Positions 21,464 to 48,770 of a stretch of 64,000 nucleotides of DNA are shown here, piece after piece. The position numbers and the translations under genes were made by a program. The stretch's first letter is position 1. The number at the start of each line of letters is the position of its first letter. The notes beneath the pieces were generated by a model, which did not search any database, was not told the DNA's origin, and worked only from the letters and a program-made list of their open reading frames with translations. Source of the stretch: Hydrogenophilus sp. (GTDB lineage: Bacteria; Pseudomonadota; Gammaproteobacteria; Burkholderiales; Thiobacillaceae); the NCBI GenBank assembly GCA_020725265.1, contig DYFK01000003.1:124001-188000 (forward strand), given 5' to 3'.

Positions 21464-22525
21464 ATGGATGATTTCAAGCTCGGCGCGATCGTCGGCGCGG
21501 TCCAGCGCAACTGCCACATCTCCGACGCCCAGTTCGCCGGCGATCTGACCCTGTGCACCTTCCTGCTCAAGATGCGCGAACTGTACCGCTGGGAACACGA
21601 CATCCCGCTGACCCGCGAGATGCCCCGCGCCGAGGTCGGCGAATGGATGAACCAGCGCGAGCGACTCTGGGAAACCGTCGAACATGCCGGCTACGAACCA
21701 TTGCCGCTGGCCGGTGGTCCGATCGATCCGTTCGAGGTCGCCGCCATCAACCGCGAGCTGGCGGCGCGCGGTCTGGTCTATTCCGGCGGCTATGGCCGCG
21801 CCTGCAAGCCGCATTTCTTCCTGGGCAGCCTGATCCGCAGCGAAACCCGCGACGGCTTCCAGATCTATGTTTCTGGCTGCGAATACGCCCGCGATCTGGA
21901 CGCGCCGCCGGGCATGCTGCTCGGCGACACCATCTTCGCGCGCGCCGAATCACTGACCCGCTGGCTTTGGGAAAAATACGAGGAATGGCGCTGGAACCGG
22001 CGCAACGAGGCGATGGCGCGCGCGGTTGGCCACTATCCGTTCGACGAGGACACCGACGCGGCGCTGCGCGCGATGACCGAAACCGAGATCGAATCGGTGA
22101 TCCTGCACGAGCTGGGCGAAGCGCGCGCGAGTGCCGAACTGGGCGAGGCCTGGCCAGCCCTGCTCGCCGACCTGATGCGCTCGCGCGCCGAGATCATGGC
22201 GCGGGCGGCTCGCGACCTTTACGCCGATTGCCTGTCGACCCTGCCCGGCCTGCTCGAACGCGGCGACGCCGCCGCGCTGCATTTCTTCTTCGCCAATTTC
22301 GTCGGCATGCGCCGGCGGCTGTTCCCGGAGCTCGCCGGTGCCTACCGGGACTGGGCAGAAACCGACGACGCCGCGGGCTGGCGCCGGATCGGCGAGGTGG
22401 CGGCCCGGAGTCGCCCACGCTGGCGCCGGACCATGGATGAAATGCTGGCCCTGCATCGGCGCCATGGCGACGCCGCCGGCCCGTTCATCGAGACATTGCT
22501 GGAACCCGCGCCGGTCACCGCTTGA
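21464..22525 (+). CDS. Conserved protein of unknown function
   Basis: 353 residues, rich in Arg, Glu and Trp, without signal peptide or membrane segment. It begins MDDFKLGAIVGAVQRNCHIS. The N-terminal half contains aromatic-rich stretches (LYRWEHDIPLTREMPRAEVG, KPHFFLGSLIRSE); the C-terminal half is helical. It looks like a soluble single-domain protein. I do not recognise a characterised family. It stands between the FAD oxidoreductase (divergent) and the EAL-HDOD gene (convergent), so no operon partner hints at its job. Confidence 0.75.
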   Translation: MDDFKLGAIVGAVQRNCHISDAQFAGDLTLCTFLLKMRELYRWEHDIPLTREMPRAEVGEWMNQRERLWETVEHAGYEPLPLAGGPIDPFEVAAINRELAARGLVYSGGYGRACKPHFFLGSLIRSETRDGFQIYVSGCEYARDLDAPPGMLLGDTIFARAESLTRWLWEKYEEWRWNRRNEAMARAVGHYPFDEDTDAALRAMTETEIESVILHELGEARASAELGEAWPALLADLMRSRAEIMARAARDLYADCLSTLPGLLERGDAAALHFFFANFVGMRRRLFPELAGAYRDWAETDDAAGWRRIGEVAARSRPRWRRTMDEMLALHRRHGDAAGPFIETLLEPAPVTA

Positions 22526-22552
22526 AAGCGGGCGGGCACGGTCACGAAAGGC

Positions 22553-23848
22553 TCAAAGATCCATGCCCTCGGCCCAGATCAGGGCTTCGATGTGGGCCAG
22601 GTTGACCGCCTGGGCATCGACGCCGAGGCTGGCGCCGAGCCGGCCGATGGCGCCTGGATCGCGACGCTCGCAGGCGACCGCCAGGGCCAGCCAGCCGGCA
22701 TAGGGCCCCTCACCGCGCAGCAGGGCTTCGACAATCGGCTCGGCCAGATTGAGCCCCTCGACGGCCTGGCTCATCGGCAATCCGAGCAAGGCGTCGAGCA
22801 TGGACAGGATGCCGACGATGAACAGGCCGTCGCGCAGGTCCGGCGGCATCCGCGCGGCCCCGAGATTCTCGGTGAAGCGGGCGCGAATCAGGGCGTTGCG
22901 CAGCAATGCCAGATTGCGTCCCTGGCCGGCGGATTCGTGCACGAACAGCAACAGGGTCAGCCAGCGATAGAGCTGATCATGGCCGAGCATGAGCAGGGCA
23001 TGGCCGATCGAGCGGACCGGATAGCGCAGGCCGACCGCCGGCGAATTGATGAAACGCAGCAGGCGCACGGTCAGGGCGGCATCCTGCTTGAGATGGCTTT
23101 CGATCTCCGGAAACTCGGCGTGTCGGGCCGACAGATTCAGCAGTTTCATGATGCGCAGCCGGCTGGCATCCATCGCGCGACCGGTCGCCGGCCGCGCGCG
23201 CGCGAAGAAATAGCCTTGGTAGAGATCGAACGACAGCTTGCGGCAGGCGTTGAAGGCTTCCTCGGTCTCGACATTGCGGGCGATCAGGCGCGGCCCGCGC
23301 AATCCCTGTAACCGGGTCAGCCGATCGCACAGGCCCATCAGGTCGTTGTCGCCGACGTCCAGGCGCAGATACCGGCATTCCCGCGCCAGCGGCGCCATGC
23401 CCGGACTCAGCGCGACCTCATCCAACGCCAGCGCGAAGCCGGCGCGCGTCAGGGCCTGACCATGCGCCAACAACTGCGGGGTCGGCGTGGCCGGGCGAAT
23501 CGCCAGGATCGCGCTCTCCCTTGGCAGCCGCTCCACCAGTGGCCCCGCCAGCGAATCGACATCGAGATTCAGCAGGGTCAGTTTGCGCCCGAGTGCCTGC
23601 TGGTAATCCATGTCGATGACGCTGGCCAGCAACAGCTCATCCTGGTTGCCACGAACGCTGACGGCACCGGGAAGCACCGGCAGGGGCCGCATCACGTCGA
23701 TTTCCAGCTCATGGCCAATCACCCGGAAATCCGCGTCGAGCAGGGGTTGGCGCGTCATGAAACCGGGCATGCCGGACGAATCCATATCGTTCTCCGCCCG
23801 GTTTTCGTCCGGGTCATGGTGTGGCCGGGCGCTTGGAATGGCGTGCAT
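22553..23848 (-). CDS. EAL-HDOD protein with degenerate EAL domain
   Basis: 431 residues; GGGAG precedes the ATG at 23848. Residues about 30-220 follow the EAL fold but the signature Glu-Ala-Leu is changed (VIGHELEIDVM) and other metal-binding motifs are missing, so it should not hydrolyse c-di-GMP. Residues 225-420 are an HDOD domain (LLNLSARHAEFPEIESHLKQ, DAALTVRLLRFINSPAVGLR, ALLMLGHDQLYRWL). YuxH-type proteins of this layout act as signalling scaffolds. It follows the DUF1631 gene by 13 bp and is therefore under the same c-di-GMP riboswitch. Confidence 0.88.
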   Translation of the reverse strand: MHAIPSARPHHDPDENRAENDMDSSGMPGFMTRQPLLDADFRVIGHELEIDVMRPLPVLPGAVSVRGNQDELLLASVIDMDYQQALGRKLTLLNLDVDSLAGPLVERLPRESAILAIRPATPTPQLLAHGQALTRAGFALALDEVALSPGMAPLARECRYLRLDVGDNDLMGLCDRLTRLQGLRGPRLIARNVETEEAFNACRKLSFDLYQGYFFARARPATGRAMDASRLRIMKLLNLSARHAEFPEIESHLKQDAALTVRLLRFINSPAVGLRYPVRSIGHALLMLGHDQLYRWLTLLLFVHESAGQGRNLALLRNALIRARFTENLGAARMPPDLRDGLFIVGILSMLDALLGLPMSQAVEGLNLAEPIVEALLRGEGPYAGWLALAVACERRDPGAIGRLGASLGVDAQAVNLAHIEALIWAEGMDL

Positions 23849-23861
23849 GAGCGGGCTCCCT

Positions 23862-25220
23862 TCAGGCGAGTTTCCGGCGGTCGGCGGGTGTCGTGGCGCG
23901 CGCGGGCTCGGCCTGGAGCGGCGACCCCAGCACGTTCGCCAGGCCCAGATTCAGCAATTCGTGCATTTCCTCGGCGCTTAACGAGAGCGCGCGCTGGCCA
24001 CGACGGTTGGTGAGCAGGAACAGGCTCCGGCGTGGACTGATCCAGGCCAGCTTGAGCAGACGGGGCCGACCGCCAGGTTCGTGGATCTCCAGCCAGCAGC
24101 CCGGCTCCAGCGCGGCCAACGCGGCCCGCGGATCCATGGCGGGCCCGGGGTCGGGCAAACCGTGTTCCGACCCCTCCGGCGGAGGCGTGATCGATGCCGG
24201 CGCCACCAACAATGGCGGCTCTTCCGGCGCGACCGTCGACGACGCGGTGGCCGTGGACAAGGCCGCCGGGCCTGGTTCGGGGACCATCGCGGCAACCGGC
24301 GTGGCGGCTGGCTCCAACACCTGGTCGGGGAGACCACCCATGCTGGCGGGGCCGGCTTCGGCATCGGGCACCACCGGCGGCGGGTACGCGGCCGATGCCG
24401 ACGGCCCCGACCAATCCACCTCGATCTCGACCTCATCCTCGCGCGGAGGTACCCGTTCCGGCACCGGCAGTTCCGGCAGCAGAAAATCGCTGTCGTCCGG
24501 AGCACGCATGCGCGGCGGCCGGCCCGGCCCCGCTTCGGAGACGGTGGCGCCACCGTCGAACAGCACGGTCAGATCCCGATATATCCCGTCAACCGCGTCC
24601 GGCAGGGTCTTGCACAATGCCTGAACCAGTTTCAGTTTGGCATCGTGGCGCCAGGGCTGATCGCGCGCCGCGTCGGCGACCGCCGCCTCGATCGCGCGCG
24701 GCCCCGGTGGGATGTCGTTGGGCGTGACGCGCTCGACGCCAAGGCGCTTGCGATAGCGCTCGGCCAATGCGTTCAGGGTCAGCCAGCAGCCGTGCTGGAT
24801 GGCATCGGTCAACGCGCCGGGCGCGAGCGCGTCATCGAGCAGCTCATGCACGACGACCCTGAGTTCGGCGTAGTCGAAATCGATGGCGTGTCCCGACAGC
24901 ATGGTCGGCTTGAAGTGGCAGGCGCGCAGGTAGCGGCGCTCGAAATGACGACCGAAATCGCGCACCAGATTGCTCCGCCGCGCGCGCGCGAAATCGGCCG
25001 CGTCCAGCCACGACTCGCGTTCACCGGGCGTCAGCGCGCGCGCGGCAAGATCGAACAGGCGCGCTTCCACCCGGATCAGGGCATCGGACAGCGCGTTCGA
25101 CAGACGCGACACCGCGACCTCGCCAGCGTCGCGCAGCGTCGGGTCGAGCCCATCCCAGGCCGAGGCGGATTTGCCTTCCGCCGGTGATACGGGCGTGGTG
25201 TTCGGTCTGATCTGTCCCAT
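23862..25220 (-). CDS. DUF1631-family protein, short form
   Basis: 452 residues from the ATG at 25220, which follows GAGGAAAGGG; an upstream ATG at 25295 lies inside the riboswitch and is rejected. Residues 25-230 match the N-terminal DUF1631 helical region (ERRYLRACHFKPTMLSGHAI). A Pro/Ala-rich linker (about 245-380) follows. The C-terminal 80 residues (LEPGCWLEIHEPGGRPRLLK, LFLLTNRRGQRALSLSAEEM) look PilZ-like, and DUF1631 proteins usually end this way. It is shorter than the usual members, from which the middle seems to be missing. Control by a c-di-GMP riboswitch links it to surface or biofilm behaviour. Confidence 0.8.
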   Translation of the reverse strand: MGQIRPNTTPVSPAEGKSASAWDGLDPTLRDAGEVAVSRLSNALSDALIRVEARLFDLAARALTPGERESWLDAADFARARRSNLVRDFGRHFERRYLRACHFKPTMLSGHAIDFDYAELRVVVHELLDDALAPGALTDAIQHGCWLTLNALAERYRKRLGVERVTPNDIPPGPRAIEAAVADAARDQPWRHDAKLKLVQALCKTLPDAVDGIYRDLTVLFDGGATVSEAGPGRPPRMRAPDDSDFLLPELPVPERVPPREDEVEIEVDWSGPSASAAYPPPVVPDAEAGPASMGGLPDQVLEPAATPVAAMVPEPGPAALSTATASSTVAPEEPPLLVAPASITPPPEGSEHGLPDPGPAMDPRAALAALEPGCWLEIHEPGGRPRLLKLAWISPRRSLFLLTNRRGQRALSLSAEEMHELLNLGLANVLGSPLQAEPARATTPADRRKLA

Positions 25221-25293
25221 GTCCCTTTCCTCAAGGAACCCGCGGGCACCGCGAAGGGGATGGCTGAAAGAGAACCCGCCGATCGGCTGGTCC
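25221..25293 (-). promoter_or_regulatory. Expression platform of the c-di-GMP riboswitch
   Basis: Between aptamer and ATG (25220) the RNA can form TTCC-TTGA-GGAA (25238-25227), which hides the ribosome-binding GAGGAA, and an upstream CCCGCGGG palindrome. No T-run terminator is seen, so translational control is more likely than attenuation. Which ligand state is ON is not evident. Confidence 0.5.
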
Positions 25294-25394
25294 ACCTGGC
25301 GATCCCGCTGTCATGGAGCACGCGCCAATCGGCGCGCGCCCTGTAGACCGGTGACTTTGCGTCCCCACCTTTCGGAGGGTTTGCCCTTGCAGGT
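25294..25394 (-). ncRNA. Cyclic di-GMP-I (GEMM-I) riboswitch
   Basis: Read on the minus strand, closing stem P1 is ACCTG (25394-25390) with CAGGT (25298-25294). The conserved core is present in order: GGGCAAACC, a GAAA-capped stem, GGGGACGCAAAG, CACCGGTCTA, a variable GC stem, and CAGCGGGATCGCC. All these are hallmarks of the class I c-di-GMP aptamer. It sits 74 bp before the DUF1631 start codon. Confidence 0.93.
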
Positions 25395-25618
25395 CATGCA
25401 TAAAGACTATGCCACGTGTTCATCGGTTCGTCTCCTGGAAACTTTAGCGCGAAATGATGACAGCCGCCGCCGCCAGACGCGTGATGGGCATCCGGGTCCG
25501 CGTCAGCGGCGCTCCAGAGGGAAAGATCGAGTACGGGCACCGCCATATCTACCATCGGCGGAGGTTCATTCGGATTGCTACTATTCCTAAAGTATTAATG
25601 CGCCCCCCGATCTCCTGA
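25395..25618. promoter_or_regulatory. Divergent spacer before the riboswitch and the diguanylate cyclase gene
   Basis: This spacer holds no convincing gene. An inverted repeat GCATA-N5-TATGC lies just upstream of the riboswitch (about 25398-25412). The sequence turns AT-rich at 25575-25603 (contains AAAGTATTAAT), probably the promoter region of the diguanylate cyclase gene. No clear -35/-10 pair could be fixed for either strand. Confidence 0.35.
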
Positions 25619-27361
25619 ATGAATCGTTTCCTCCTGCACCGCCGTTACTGGCTGCCGCCATTGTTACTGTGGACGGCGGTGGTCGCGCTGTCATTCCTCT
25701 GGAATGTGCATGACGCCAGGCGGAACACGGCCGAGCTGGCGGTCAACGAAGGCCGGTTCGTATTCGGCATGATCCAGGCGACACGCCAGTGGAACGCGCT
25801 GCACGGCGGCGTCTATGGCCTGGTCAGCGCCGAATCGCCGTCCAACCCCTACCTGGACGCGCACGAAAAGGACATCGTCACGCCGACCGGCCGCCAGTTG
25901 ACCCTGCTGAATCCGGCCTACATGACCCGGCAGTTGTCGGAAGTCATCCAGGAGCAGACCGGCATCCGCGTCCACATCACCAGTCTGAATCCGATCAATC
26001 CGGGCAATGCGGCGCGCGGTTGGGAAATCGACGCGCTGCGCGGCTTCGATCGTGGCGACAAGGAATTCTTCGCCATGCCGGCGGCCGGTGAGTCCACCGC
26101 GCTGGCGCGCTACGCGGCGCCCCTGATAACCCGGCACGCCTGCCTGCAATGTCACGAAAAACAGGGGTACCGGGTGGGTGACATCCGTGGCGGCATCACC
26201 GTGGTCTACCCGATTTCCGCGTTCATCGCGATGCAGTCGGAACGGCTCTGGCAACTTGCGGCCGCCCATCTTGGCATCTGGCTGTTGCTGTCCGGATTGA
26301 CGCTGCTGGCGTTGCGCATGATCCGCGAACAACTGCTTTCCCTCGATCGCGCCAAGGGGGAACAGGACGCGCTGGTCGAACAGCGCACCCGCGAACTGCG
26401 CGAGGAAGTGCGCGAACGCAAGGAGGCGGAAAGCAGCCTGCGCCTGCTGATCAATTTCTCCGGCGAGGGCATTTTCGGTGTCGACAAGTCCGGTGCCTGT
26501 ACCTTCTGCAATCCCGCCGCCGCCCGCCTGCTCGGCTACGCCAGCGCCGACGCGTTGCTCGGGCGCGATATCCTGGCGCTGATCCGGCCGGTCGCCGCCG
26601 GTCCGGATGGCGAACCCCTGGCCCGGGACTGCCAGGCCCTGCGCGAGGGCATCCCGATCCATATCGAGGACGCCGGTTTCACGCGCGCCGACGGCGGCCA
26701 CCTGCCGGTGGAATACCGGGCGCACCCGATCTACATCGATGGTCAGGTCACCGGCGCGGTATTCACCTTTTCCGACATCACCGCGCGCAAGCAATCGCTG
26801 GAACGGATCTGGCGCCAGGCCAATTACGACGCGCTCAGCCAGCTGCCCAACCGGGAATTGCTGCTCGACCGCCTGGATCGCGCCATCGCCCAGGCCCGGC
26901 GTGGTGGCGACCGGCTGGCCGTGCTGTTCATCGATCTGGACCGCTTCAAGGAAGCCAACGACACGCTCGGCCACGACGCCGGCGATCACATCCTGCGCGA
27001 TGCCGCGCGCCGGATGGAAGCCTGTCTGCGCGACACCGACACCCTCGCCCGCCTGGGCGGCGATGAATTCCTGGCCGTTCTGCCGTTCGTCGAGAGCCGG
27101 GCGGCGGCGGAAACCGTCGCCGCCAAGATCGTGGAAGCGCTGGCGCTGCCGTTCGCGACACCGGCCGGGACCGCCGGAATTTCGGCATCGATCGGCATCG
27201 CGCTGTATCCGGATGACGCCACCACCCGCGACAAACTGATCCGCGACGCCGACCACGCCATGTATCGCGCCAAGGACGCCGGCCGTAACACCTGGCGGAC
27301 GTTCGGCGACGAACCGACGGCGCATGCGCCCGCCGAAATCAGCGCGGCCGCATCGCCCTGA
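25619..27361 (+). CDS. Haem-sensor (Tll0287-like) PAS-GGDEF diguanylate cyclase
   Basis: 580 residues. A membrane segment at about 12-30, a periplasmic Tll0287-like domain (about 35-205) with the c-type haem motif CLQCH, a second membrane segment (LWQLAAAHLGIWLLLSGLTLL), a coiled coil, a PAS domain (about 275-395) and a GGDEF domain (about 410-565). The active site LGGDEFLAVL and the metal-binding FIDLDRFKEAND are intact; no RxxD inhibitory site is obvious. It should make c-di-GMP in response to redox, NO or O2 sensed by the periplasmic haem. It is divergent from the c-di-GMP riboswitch operon, and its 3' end overlaps gluQ by 23 bp. Confidence 0.92.
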   Translation: MNRFLLHRRYWLPPLLLWTAVVALSFLWNVHDARRNTAELAVNEGRFVFGMIQATRQWNALHGGVYGLVSAESPSNPYLDAHEKDIVTPTGRQLTLLNPAYMTRQLSEVIQEQTGIRVHITSLNPINPGNAARGWEIDALRGFDRGDKEFFAMPAAGESTALARYAAPLITRHACLQCHEKQGYRVGDIRGGITVVYPISAFIAMQSERLWQLAAAHLGIWLLLSGLTLLALRMIREQLLSLDRAKGEQDALVEQRTRELREEVRERKEAESSLRLLINFSGEGIFGVDKSGACTFCNPAAARLLGYASADALLGRDILALIRPVAAGPDGEPLARDCQALREGIPIHIEDAGFTRADGGHLPVEYRAHPIYIDGQVTGAVFTFSDITARKQSLERIWRQANYDALSQLPNRELLLDRLDRAIAQARRGGDRLAVLFIDLDRFKEANDTLGHDAGDHILRDAARRMEACLRDTDTLARLGGDEFLAVLPFVESRAAAETVAAKIVEALALPFATPAGTAGISASIGIALYPDDATTRDKLIRDADHAMYRAKDAGRNTWRTFGDEPTAHAPAEISAAASP

Positions 27362-48646: not shown

Positions 48647-48741
48647 GGCGGGCCCCCCCGCATGGCTAAGTCGTGAACCTGGTCAGGTCCGGAAGGAAGC
48701 AGCCACAGCGATCGATGCCAGTGCCGGGGATCAGGCTCGCC
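48647..48741 (+). ncRNA. ffs: 4.5S RNA, signal recognition particle RNA
   Basis: The conserved core GTCAGGTCCGGAAGGAAGCA and CAGCCACAGC are present at about 48680-48710. The outer ends GGCGGGCC (48647-48654) and GGCTCGCC (48734-48741) pair to close the hairpin. It binds Ffh for co-translational membrane targeting. Exact ends are estimated from pairing. It lies just before pagL and dnaX. Confidence 0.93.
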
Positions 48742-48770
48742 CCCCATCCCCTGACATGCTGGAGTCCGGA

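Follow-up and report, generated by a model that had tools for sequence, protein, structure and literature searches.

The short DUF1631 gene and the EAL-HDOD gene behind it in the window (the whole stretch of DNA analysed, 64 kb) are probably governed by a control region with two keys, a FliA-type promoter and a c-di-GMP-I leader. The late-flagellar sigma factor FliA would transcribe a leader that starts with a c-di-GMP-I aptamer, and c-di-GMP acting on that leader would set the output of a short DUF1631 protein and a degenerate EAL-HDOD protein; FliA would decide when, and c-di-GMP whether. If so, the unit would be a late (class-3) flagellar operon that is also gated by c-di-GMP. The two genes presumably share one transcript, and the direction of control is only slightly more likely to be OFF, with the products made in swimming cells at low c-di-GMP, than ON. 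The DNA itself shows the aptamer, the sigma28-type site and the order of the genes, and also that this arrangement recurs in the family. An earlier note on this DNA had recognised the aptamer and the unit that it heads, and overlooked the sigma28 site, a second riboswitch before a full-length paralogue, and the family recurrence. The elements are as follows, in window coordinates.

25420..25446, minus strand: sigma28 (FliA)-type promoter TAAAGTTT-N11-ACCGATGA, 14 of 16 consensus bases, in a similar place in relatives
25295..25395, minus strand: c-di-GMP-I (GEMM-I) riboswitch aptamer, matched by RF01051 and with covariation in 61 family aptamers
25221..25294, minus strand: leader from aptamer to start codon (expression platform), in which no intrinsic-terminator-like site was found
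25221..25239, minus strand: 7-bp helix GUUCCUU/AAGGGAC predicted by ViennaRNA, with GAGGA in the loop, abutting the ATG
23862..25220, minus strand: gene for a short DUF1631 protein of 452 aa (Pfam PF07793; AlphaFold2)
22553..23848, minus strand: second gene, for a degenerate EAL-HDOD protein of 431 aa (Pfam; AlphaFold2/Foldseek)

The covariance model RF01051 matches 25395-25295 (minus strand) with 64.2 bits and an E value of 3e-10 for the 64-kb window, against a gathering score of 35 bits. All 87 model positions (1-87) are matched, and this is the sole GEMM-I match over the cut-off in the window. The search is one of the checks that the earlier note had proposed, and the match is both significant and full-length. 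The parts that it had described on the minus strand, namely the core GGGCAAACC / GAAA / GACGCAAAG, the CACCGGTCTA side and the closing stem ACCTG/CAGGT, are all present, the distance from the 3' end of the aptamer to the ATG at 25220 is indeed 74 nt, and the reading of a DUF1631 and EAL-HDOD unit headed by the aptamer is supported. When 61 aptamers leading DUF1631 genes in Thiobacillaceae were aligned, double (compensatory) changes were seen at 10 of 19 predicted pairs, kinship being ignored, and the columns equated with G20, A47 and C92, which we take to be the ligand bases in Vc2 numbering, were invariant (61/61). By class, as judged from its sequence, the element is a c-di-GMP-I aptamer. 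The presumed mark of cGAMP-selective GEMM-I (GEMM-Ib), an A at position 20, did not occur, with G in 61 of 61 aligned aptamers. The invariant columns, together with the covarying pairs, argue for c-di-GMP over cGAMP as the ligand, and binding of c-di-GMP by the leader is to be expected. In the part of PMC6274999 available, cGAMP is described as bound by a G20A mutant.

Three other aptamers are GEMM-I variants that lie before large adhesin-like genes, named by eye:

G003:C9:47020-47094, variant aptamer L124
G057:C12:78709-78788, variant aptamer L125
G054:C29:178413-178495, variant aptamer L127

Their core is AAAGCCACACC and GGGTCGGAAAG, in which the G21-C46 pair has seemingly been swapped to C-G and A24 and A43 are also altered, and these variants may have a different ligand or affinity.

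The first gene of the unit, at 23862-25220 (minus strand), matches PF07793 with 112.3 bits (cut-off 33.7), and the coverage is partial, comprising only the N-terminal (11-197) and C-terminal (622-724) stretches of the model, with the middle missing. Its only NCBIfam match is PacR (NF058594), at 57.8 bits for the short protein and 243.5 for the full-length paralogue against a cut-off of 1200; the window protein resembles DUF1631 in its N- and C-terminal parts, and differs in having no DUF1631 middle and in lying far below the PacR cut-off. In the AlphaFold2 model, residues 20-222 fold as an all-alpha N domain, predicted with confidence apart from about 107-128, and a disordered linker leads to a small beta domain at the C-terminal end (361-431). 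Foldseek gave no structural match to this model at E <=0.001, the best being an artificial helical bundle (E 0.085), and the C-terminal part met SH3/Tudor-like barrels at E values from 0.19. A PilZ-like C-terminal domain was rejected, there being no Foldseek match at E 0.001 or better, and no sequence relatives were found in the PDB up to E 1. The EAL-HDOD gene (22553-23848, minus strand) begins 13 nt past the DUF1631 stop. Its HDOD match is over the cut-off (44.9 bits, cut-off 22.9) and its EAL match is below (23.7 bits vs 31.3), and the AlphaFold2 model (mean pLDDT 80) matches EAL structures with a Foldseek E value of 2e-7. The signature of an active EAL enzyme, which we take to be intact EAL, DDFGTG and K motifs, appears in the alignment, viewed by eye, to be altered and partly lost. 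Neither the Pfam match over the cut-off nor the intact motifs of an active EAL phosphodiesterase were found in this protein and, because the signature residues are partly lost, phosphodiesterase activity is not expected.

The sigma28-type site lies 24 nt upstream of the aptamer. Scored against what we take to be the sigma28 consensus, TAAAGTTT-N11-GCCGATAA, it has 14 of 16 bases at the correct spacing of 11, and 25420-25446 (minus strand) is the only sigma28-like site of at least 13/16 among 127,948 window positions. FliA would presumably use it. Two other readings of this region were rejected by eye: a sigma54 promoter, for which the GG-to-GC spacing is 12 and not 10, and an upstream ORF of nine codons that would start with the ATG at 25423, dismissed because that ATG sits within the sigma28 -10 element. 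The same genome encodes FliA (271.8 bits, cut-off 189.6), its gene lying beside a MotA-type gene and near an SRP54-GTPase gene. RF01051 has only two matches in this genome, each with a sigma28-like site in front and a DUF1631 gene behind. The second aptamer, at C15:88008-88092 (minus strand), heads a full-length DUF1631 gene (587.7 bits), and its sigma28-like site scores 13/16 at spacer 11, or 14/16 at spacer 10; a third DUF1631 match, covering model 481-727 at C20, comes without an aptamer match. With up to three mismatches the sigma28 pattern finds 19 sites in the genome and 11 in a reversed control, so weak sites alone mean little. Two mismatches or fewer are seen at ten sites, one of which is the window site. 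Of the other nine, seven lie before genes for CheW, a CheW-receiver (CheV-type) protein, CheZ, flagellin, two chemoreceptors (MCPs) and a CZB-GGDEF protein, the CZB domain of which is just under the cut-off; the remaining two lie before a Pfam-less protein followed by a chemoreceptor-type protein, and before a thioredoxin-like protein.

The arrangement recurs among relatives. In a sample of 100 Thiobacillaceae genomes, RF01051 was found in 89, PF07793 in 90 and FliA over the cut-off in 87. Among 150 aptamers listed, at least 61 are followed on the same strand by a DUF1631 match that begins no more than 900 nt downstream, and at least eight further aptamers lead DUF1631 or DUF1631-like genes (in G012, G020, G028 and G092, and in G002, G022, G030 and G043 of genus g3, where genes were called DUF1631-like partly by the resemblance of their first residues). 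A sigma28-like site of at least 12/16 (spacer 10-12) lies upstream of 53 of the 61 DUF1631 aptamers vs 5 of 22 inspected that were not matched to DUF1631 (Fisher P 7e-8, kinship ignored), and occurs in 14 of 1500 random 125-nt stretches. The 22 were picked from 89 unmatched aptamers, and one of them (L112) in fact heads DUF1631 remnants. Eight of the 61 pairs score below 12, and L239, counted among the 53, has a probably spurious site that overlaps with the aptamer. As for the eight further aptamers, those of G012, G020 and G092 have sigma28 scores of 12-15 and the four of g3 a score of 9, G028 being left out of the scoring with an examined stretch that ended just upstream.

Gene order is also kept, the EAL-HDOD gene following the short DUF1631 gene in 11 of 12 short-form riboswitch loci (the window and L088-L098). 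L093 is without it, and in the same genome an EAL-HDOD gene follows a riboswitched long DUF1631 gene (L107). Seen from the second gene, DUF1631 (own HMM) lies directly upstream in 13 of 80 EAL-HDOD loci taken from named genomes, and eight of the 13 have a GEMM core by regular expression. The pair is kept without that core in L134, L137 and L139, and since a 14/16 sigma28 site stands a short way upstream in L134 and L137, promoter and riboswitch appear to be separable. Among full-length DUF1631 genes of the riboswitched type, eight that have no listed aptamer were inspected; no GEMM core was seen upstream of them, and one (L267) has a 14/16 sigma28 site. Of the DUF1631 ORFs of about 1300 aa listed, the two scanned (L268 and L270) are DUF1631-GGDEF-EAL proteins, which have DUF1631 in common with the window protein and differ from it by the fusion to GGDEF and EAL. 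Among the matches listed, no DUF1631 ORF of 1200 aa or more has an aptamer upstream, and these fusions tie DUF1631 to c-di-GMP independently of the riboswitch. Beyond the family, 34 of 185 genomes of the class (own included) have GEMM-I, and 13 of the 34 have DUF1631, in no case near the aptamer by the listed coordinates.

It is hardly credible that the sigma28-like site is there by chance, with a housekeeping promoter driving the unit and the riboswitch alone of importance. Within the first 19 DUF1631-riboswitch loci, kinship again ignored, all 17 sites of at least 13/16 (spacer 11) sit 18-34 nt before the aptamer, and none occurs elsewhere in the 333,280 positions of the same loci; most of the other best sites in the window's own genome precede flagellar or chemotaxis-type genes, as described above; and a scan of 22300-25800 for strong sigma70 consensus found none on either strand. 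What speaks for chance is genus g3 (G002, G022, G030, G037 and G043), where an aptamer precedes a DUF1631-like gene and the best sigma28 score is 9/16, and G063, where the sigma28 sites of the two riboswitch-DUF1631 loci score 16/16 and 14/16 and no FliA passes the cut-off, possibly through an assembly gap, since its close relative G048 has FliA. As to joint loss across the sample, DUF1631 is absent from 3 of 87 genomes with FliA over the cut-off vs 7 of 13 without, and five of these seven belong to one reduced-genome genus (g7). Against such joint loss stand six genomes with DUF1631 matches and no FliA over the cut-off (G013, G029, G037, G049, G078 and G063). FliA lies in two pieces at contig ends in G049, and G078 is 58% complete, while G029 keeps the aptamer and a full DUF1631 gene. 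In G013, which is 97% complete, the aptamer still scores 81.9 bits and the promoter 11/16, and the DUF1631 and EAL-HDOD genes behind that aptamer (L112, G013:C28) are broken remnants.

Control of the unit by its leader is presumably exerted at translation. The earlier note had assigned this to an RBS hairpin, TTCC-TTGA-GGAA. The sequence exists, and ViennaRNA prefers a 7-bp helix there, GUUCCUU/AAGGGAC (-8.5 kcal/mol). Translational control by the hairpin found no support: the motif TCCTTGAGGA is present in 8 of 271 loci examined, five of the eight being overlapping copies of the window locus, and motif counts and inspection by eye revealed no conservation of a start-adjacent helix across leaders. 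In the window, the predicted accessibility of the start region is also independent of the aptamer, 10 of 40 shuffled aptamers giving at least as high a value in ViennaRNA. Unconserved and aptamer-independent in silico, the hairpin was rejected as the switch, as was pairing of the aptamer's AAGGGC with the CU tract of the leader, which fails in L094 (by eye). Transcription termination, through Rho or a cryptic terminator, or RNA decay could take the place of translation, and either is unlikely. Some leaders are rich in C (C vs G is 41% vs 27% in L007 and 44 vs 32 in L097), but the excess is inconsistent between leaders (30 vs 33 in L088, 25 vs 33 in L090, 32 vs 32 in the window), and Rho control was rejected on this ground; an intrinsic terminator was likewise rejected, no such site being found on the strand of the unit. 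An RNA whose main task in motile cells is to soak up c-di-GMP as a sponge, with the downstream genes incidental, has been proposed for Bdellovibrio merRNA and is a very improbable account of the present leader. The likeness lies in a FliA programme and a c-di-GMP riboswitch RNA: in the part of PMC3627812 available, FliA is put forward as the regulator of the Bdellovibrio attack phase, and a c-di-GMP riboswitch is described in an abundant ncRNA. By the same part of that source, Table 2 does not mark merRNA as FliA-promoted and no conserved ORF lies downstream of it, whereas in the present family at least 61 of the 150 aptamers listed are followed by a DUF1631 match, in a gene order that is kept.

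An ON switch would have the same anatomy, with c-di-GMP raising expression and the operon made as the flagellated cell begins settling, and its chances fall somewhat short of even. Elsewhere in these genomes, GEMM-I aptamers lie before genes of adhesin, pilin and secreted type (by eye), which would be expected to be c-di-GMP-induced, and one leader of 14, L088, leans to ON in silico. Five of the 14 lean to OFF, their start regions being more accessible than nearly all shuffles (<=4/40) in an unconstrained ensemble, the bound state of the aptamer being outside the reach of this computation; the window leader did not differ from its shuffles. With five leaders of OFF type and one opposite, the in silico switching points weakly to an OFF switch. 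Cd1 of Clostridioides difficile, a GEMM-I-type aptamer joined to flagellar gene control, is also against ON, being described in the part of PMC9262584 available as a transcriptional OFF switch before eleven flagellar genes. Unlike Cd1, the window has a sigma28-type promoter, no terminator that could be seen and a signalling-type operon.

The riboswitch belongs to a known class, RF01051, with which it shares a full-length model match, the core bases, covarying stems and its position in a leader; it differs in having DUF1631 as the following gene and a sigma28-type promoter. On present sampling, this gene context and the wiring of the sigma28-riboswitch-DUF1631/EAL-HDOD module are new and confined to one family. 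No such sigma28-riboswitch-DUF1631 arrangement was found in the parts of the published literature covered, most subscription papers lying outside that coverage, nor any link between DUF1631 and a riboswitch; mentions of DUF1631 in the texts available were in passing, no paper on PacR was found and, as far as seen, the family is uncharacterised. Because the promoter-riboswitch arrangement recurs in many relatives, it ties the DUF1631 family to swimming and to c-di-GMP signalling, and it offers the study of a widespread family (90 of 100 Thiobacillaceae genomes) both a programme, late flagellar, and a signal, c-di-GMP. At the RNA level, a single leader would couple c-di-GMP to the checkpoint of flagellar assembly. 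It could be speculated, tentatively and with rather less than even confidence, that DUF1631 is a general output or input module for c-di-GMP, elsewhere fused to GGDEF-EAL, that the pair acts after assembly as a new brake or polarity control of the flagellum, and that its synthesis follows an AND or AND-NOT gate of FliA and c-di-GMP.

Some further features were seen around the unit and in the relatives. The riboswitch unit and a divergent Tll0287-PAS-GGDEF gene (window 25619-27361, plus strand) have their intergenic region in common; this GGDEF neighbour was not found in about 1.1 kb viewed upstream of the 18 loci of relatives and the paralogue. The window also carries a bacterial small SRP RNA at 48647-48744 (plus strand, 75.5 bits). 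Four aptamers of other loci (L118, L119, L121 and L126) lie behind sigma28-like sites of 13-15/16 and lead, by eye, small secreted-type proteins, a minor-pilin-type operon and a subtilase-type protein, so that the pairing of FliA and riboswitch may extend beyond DUF1631.
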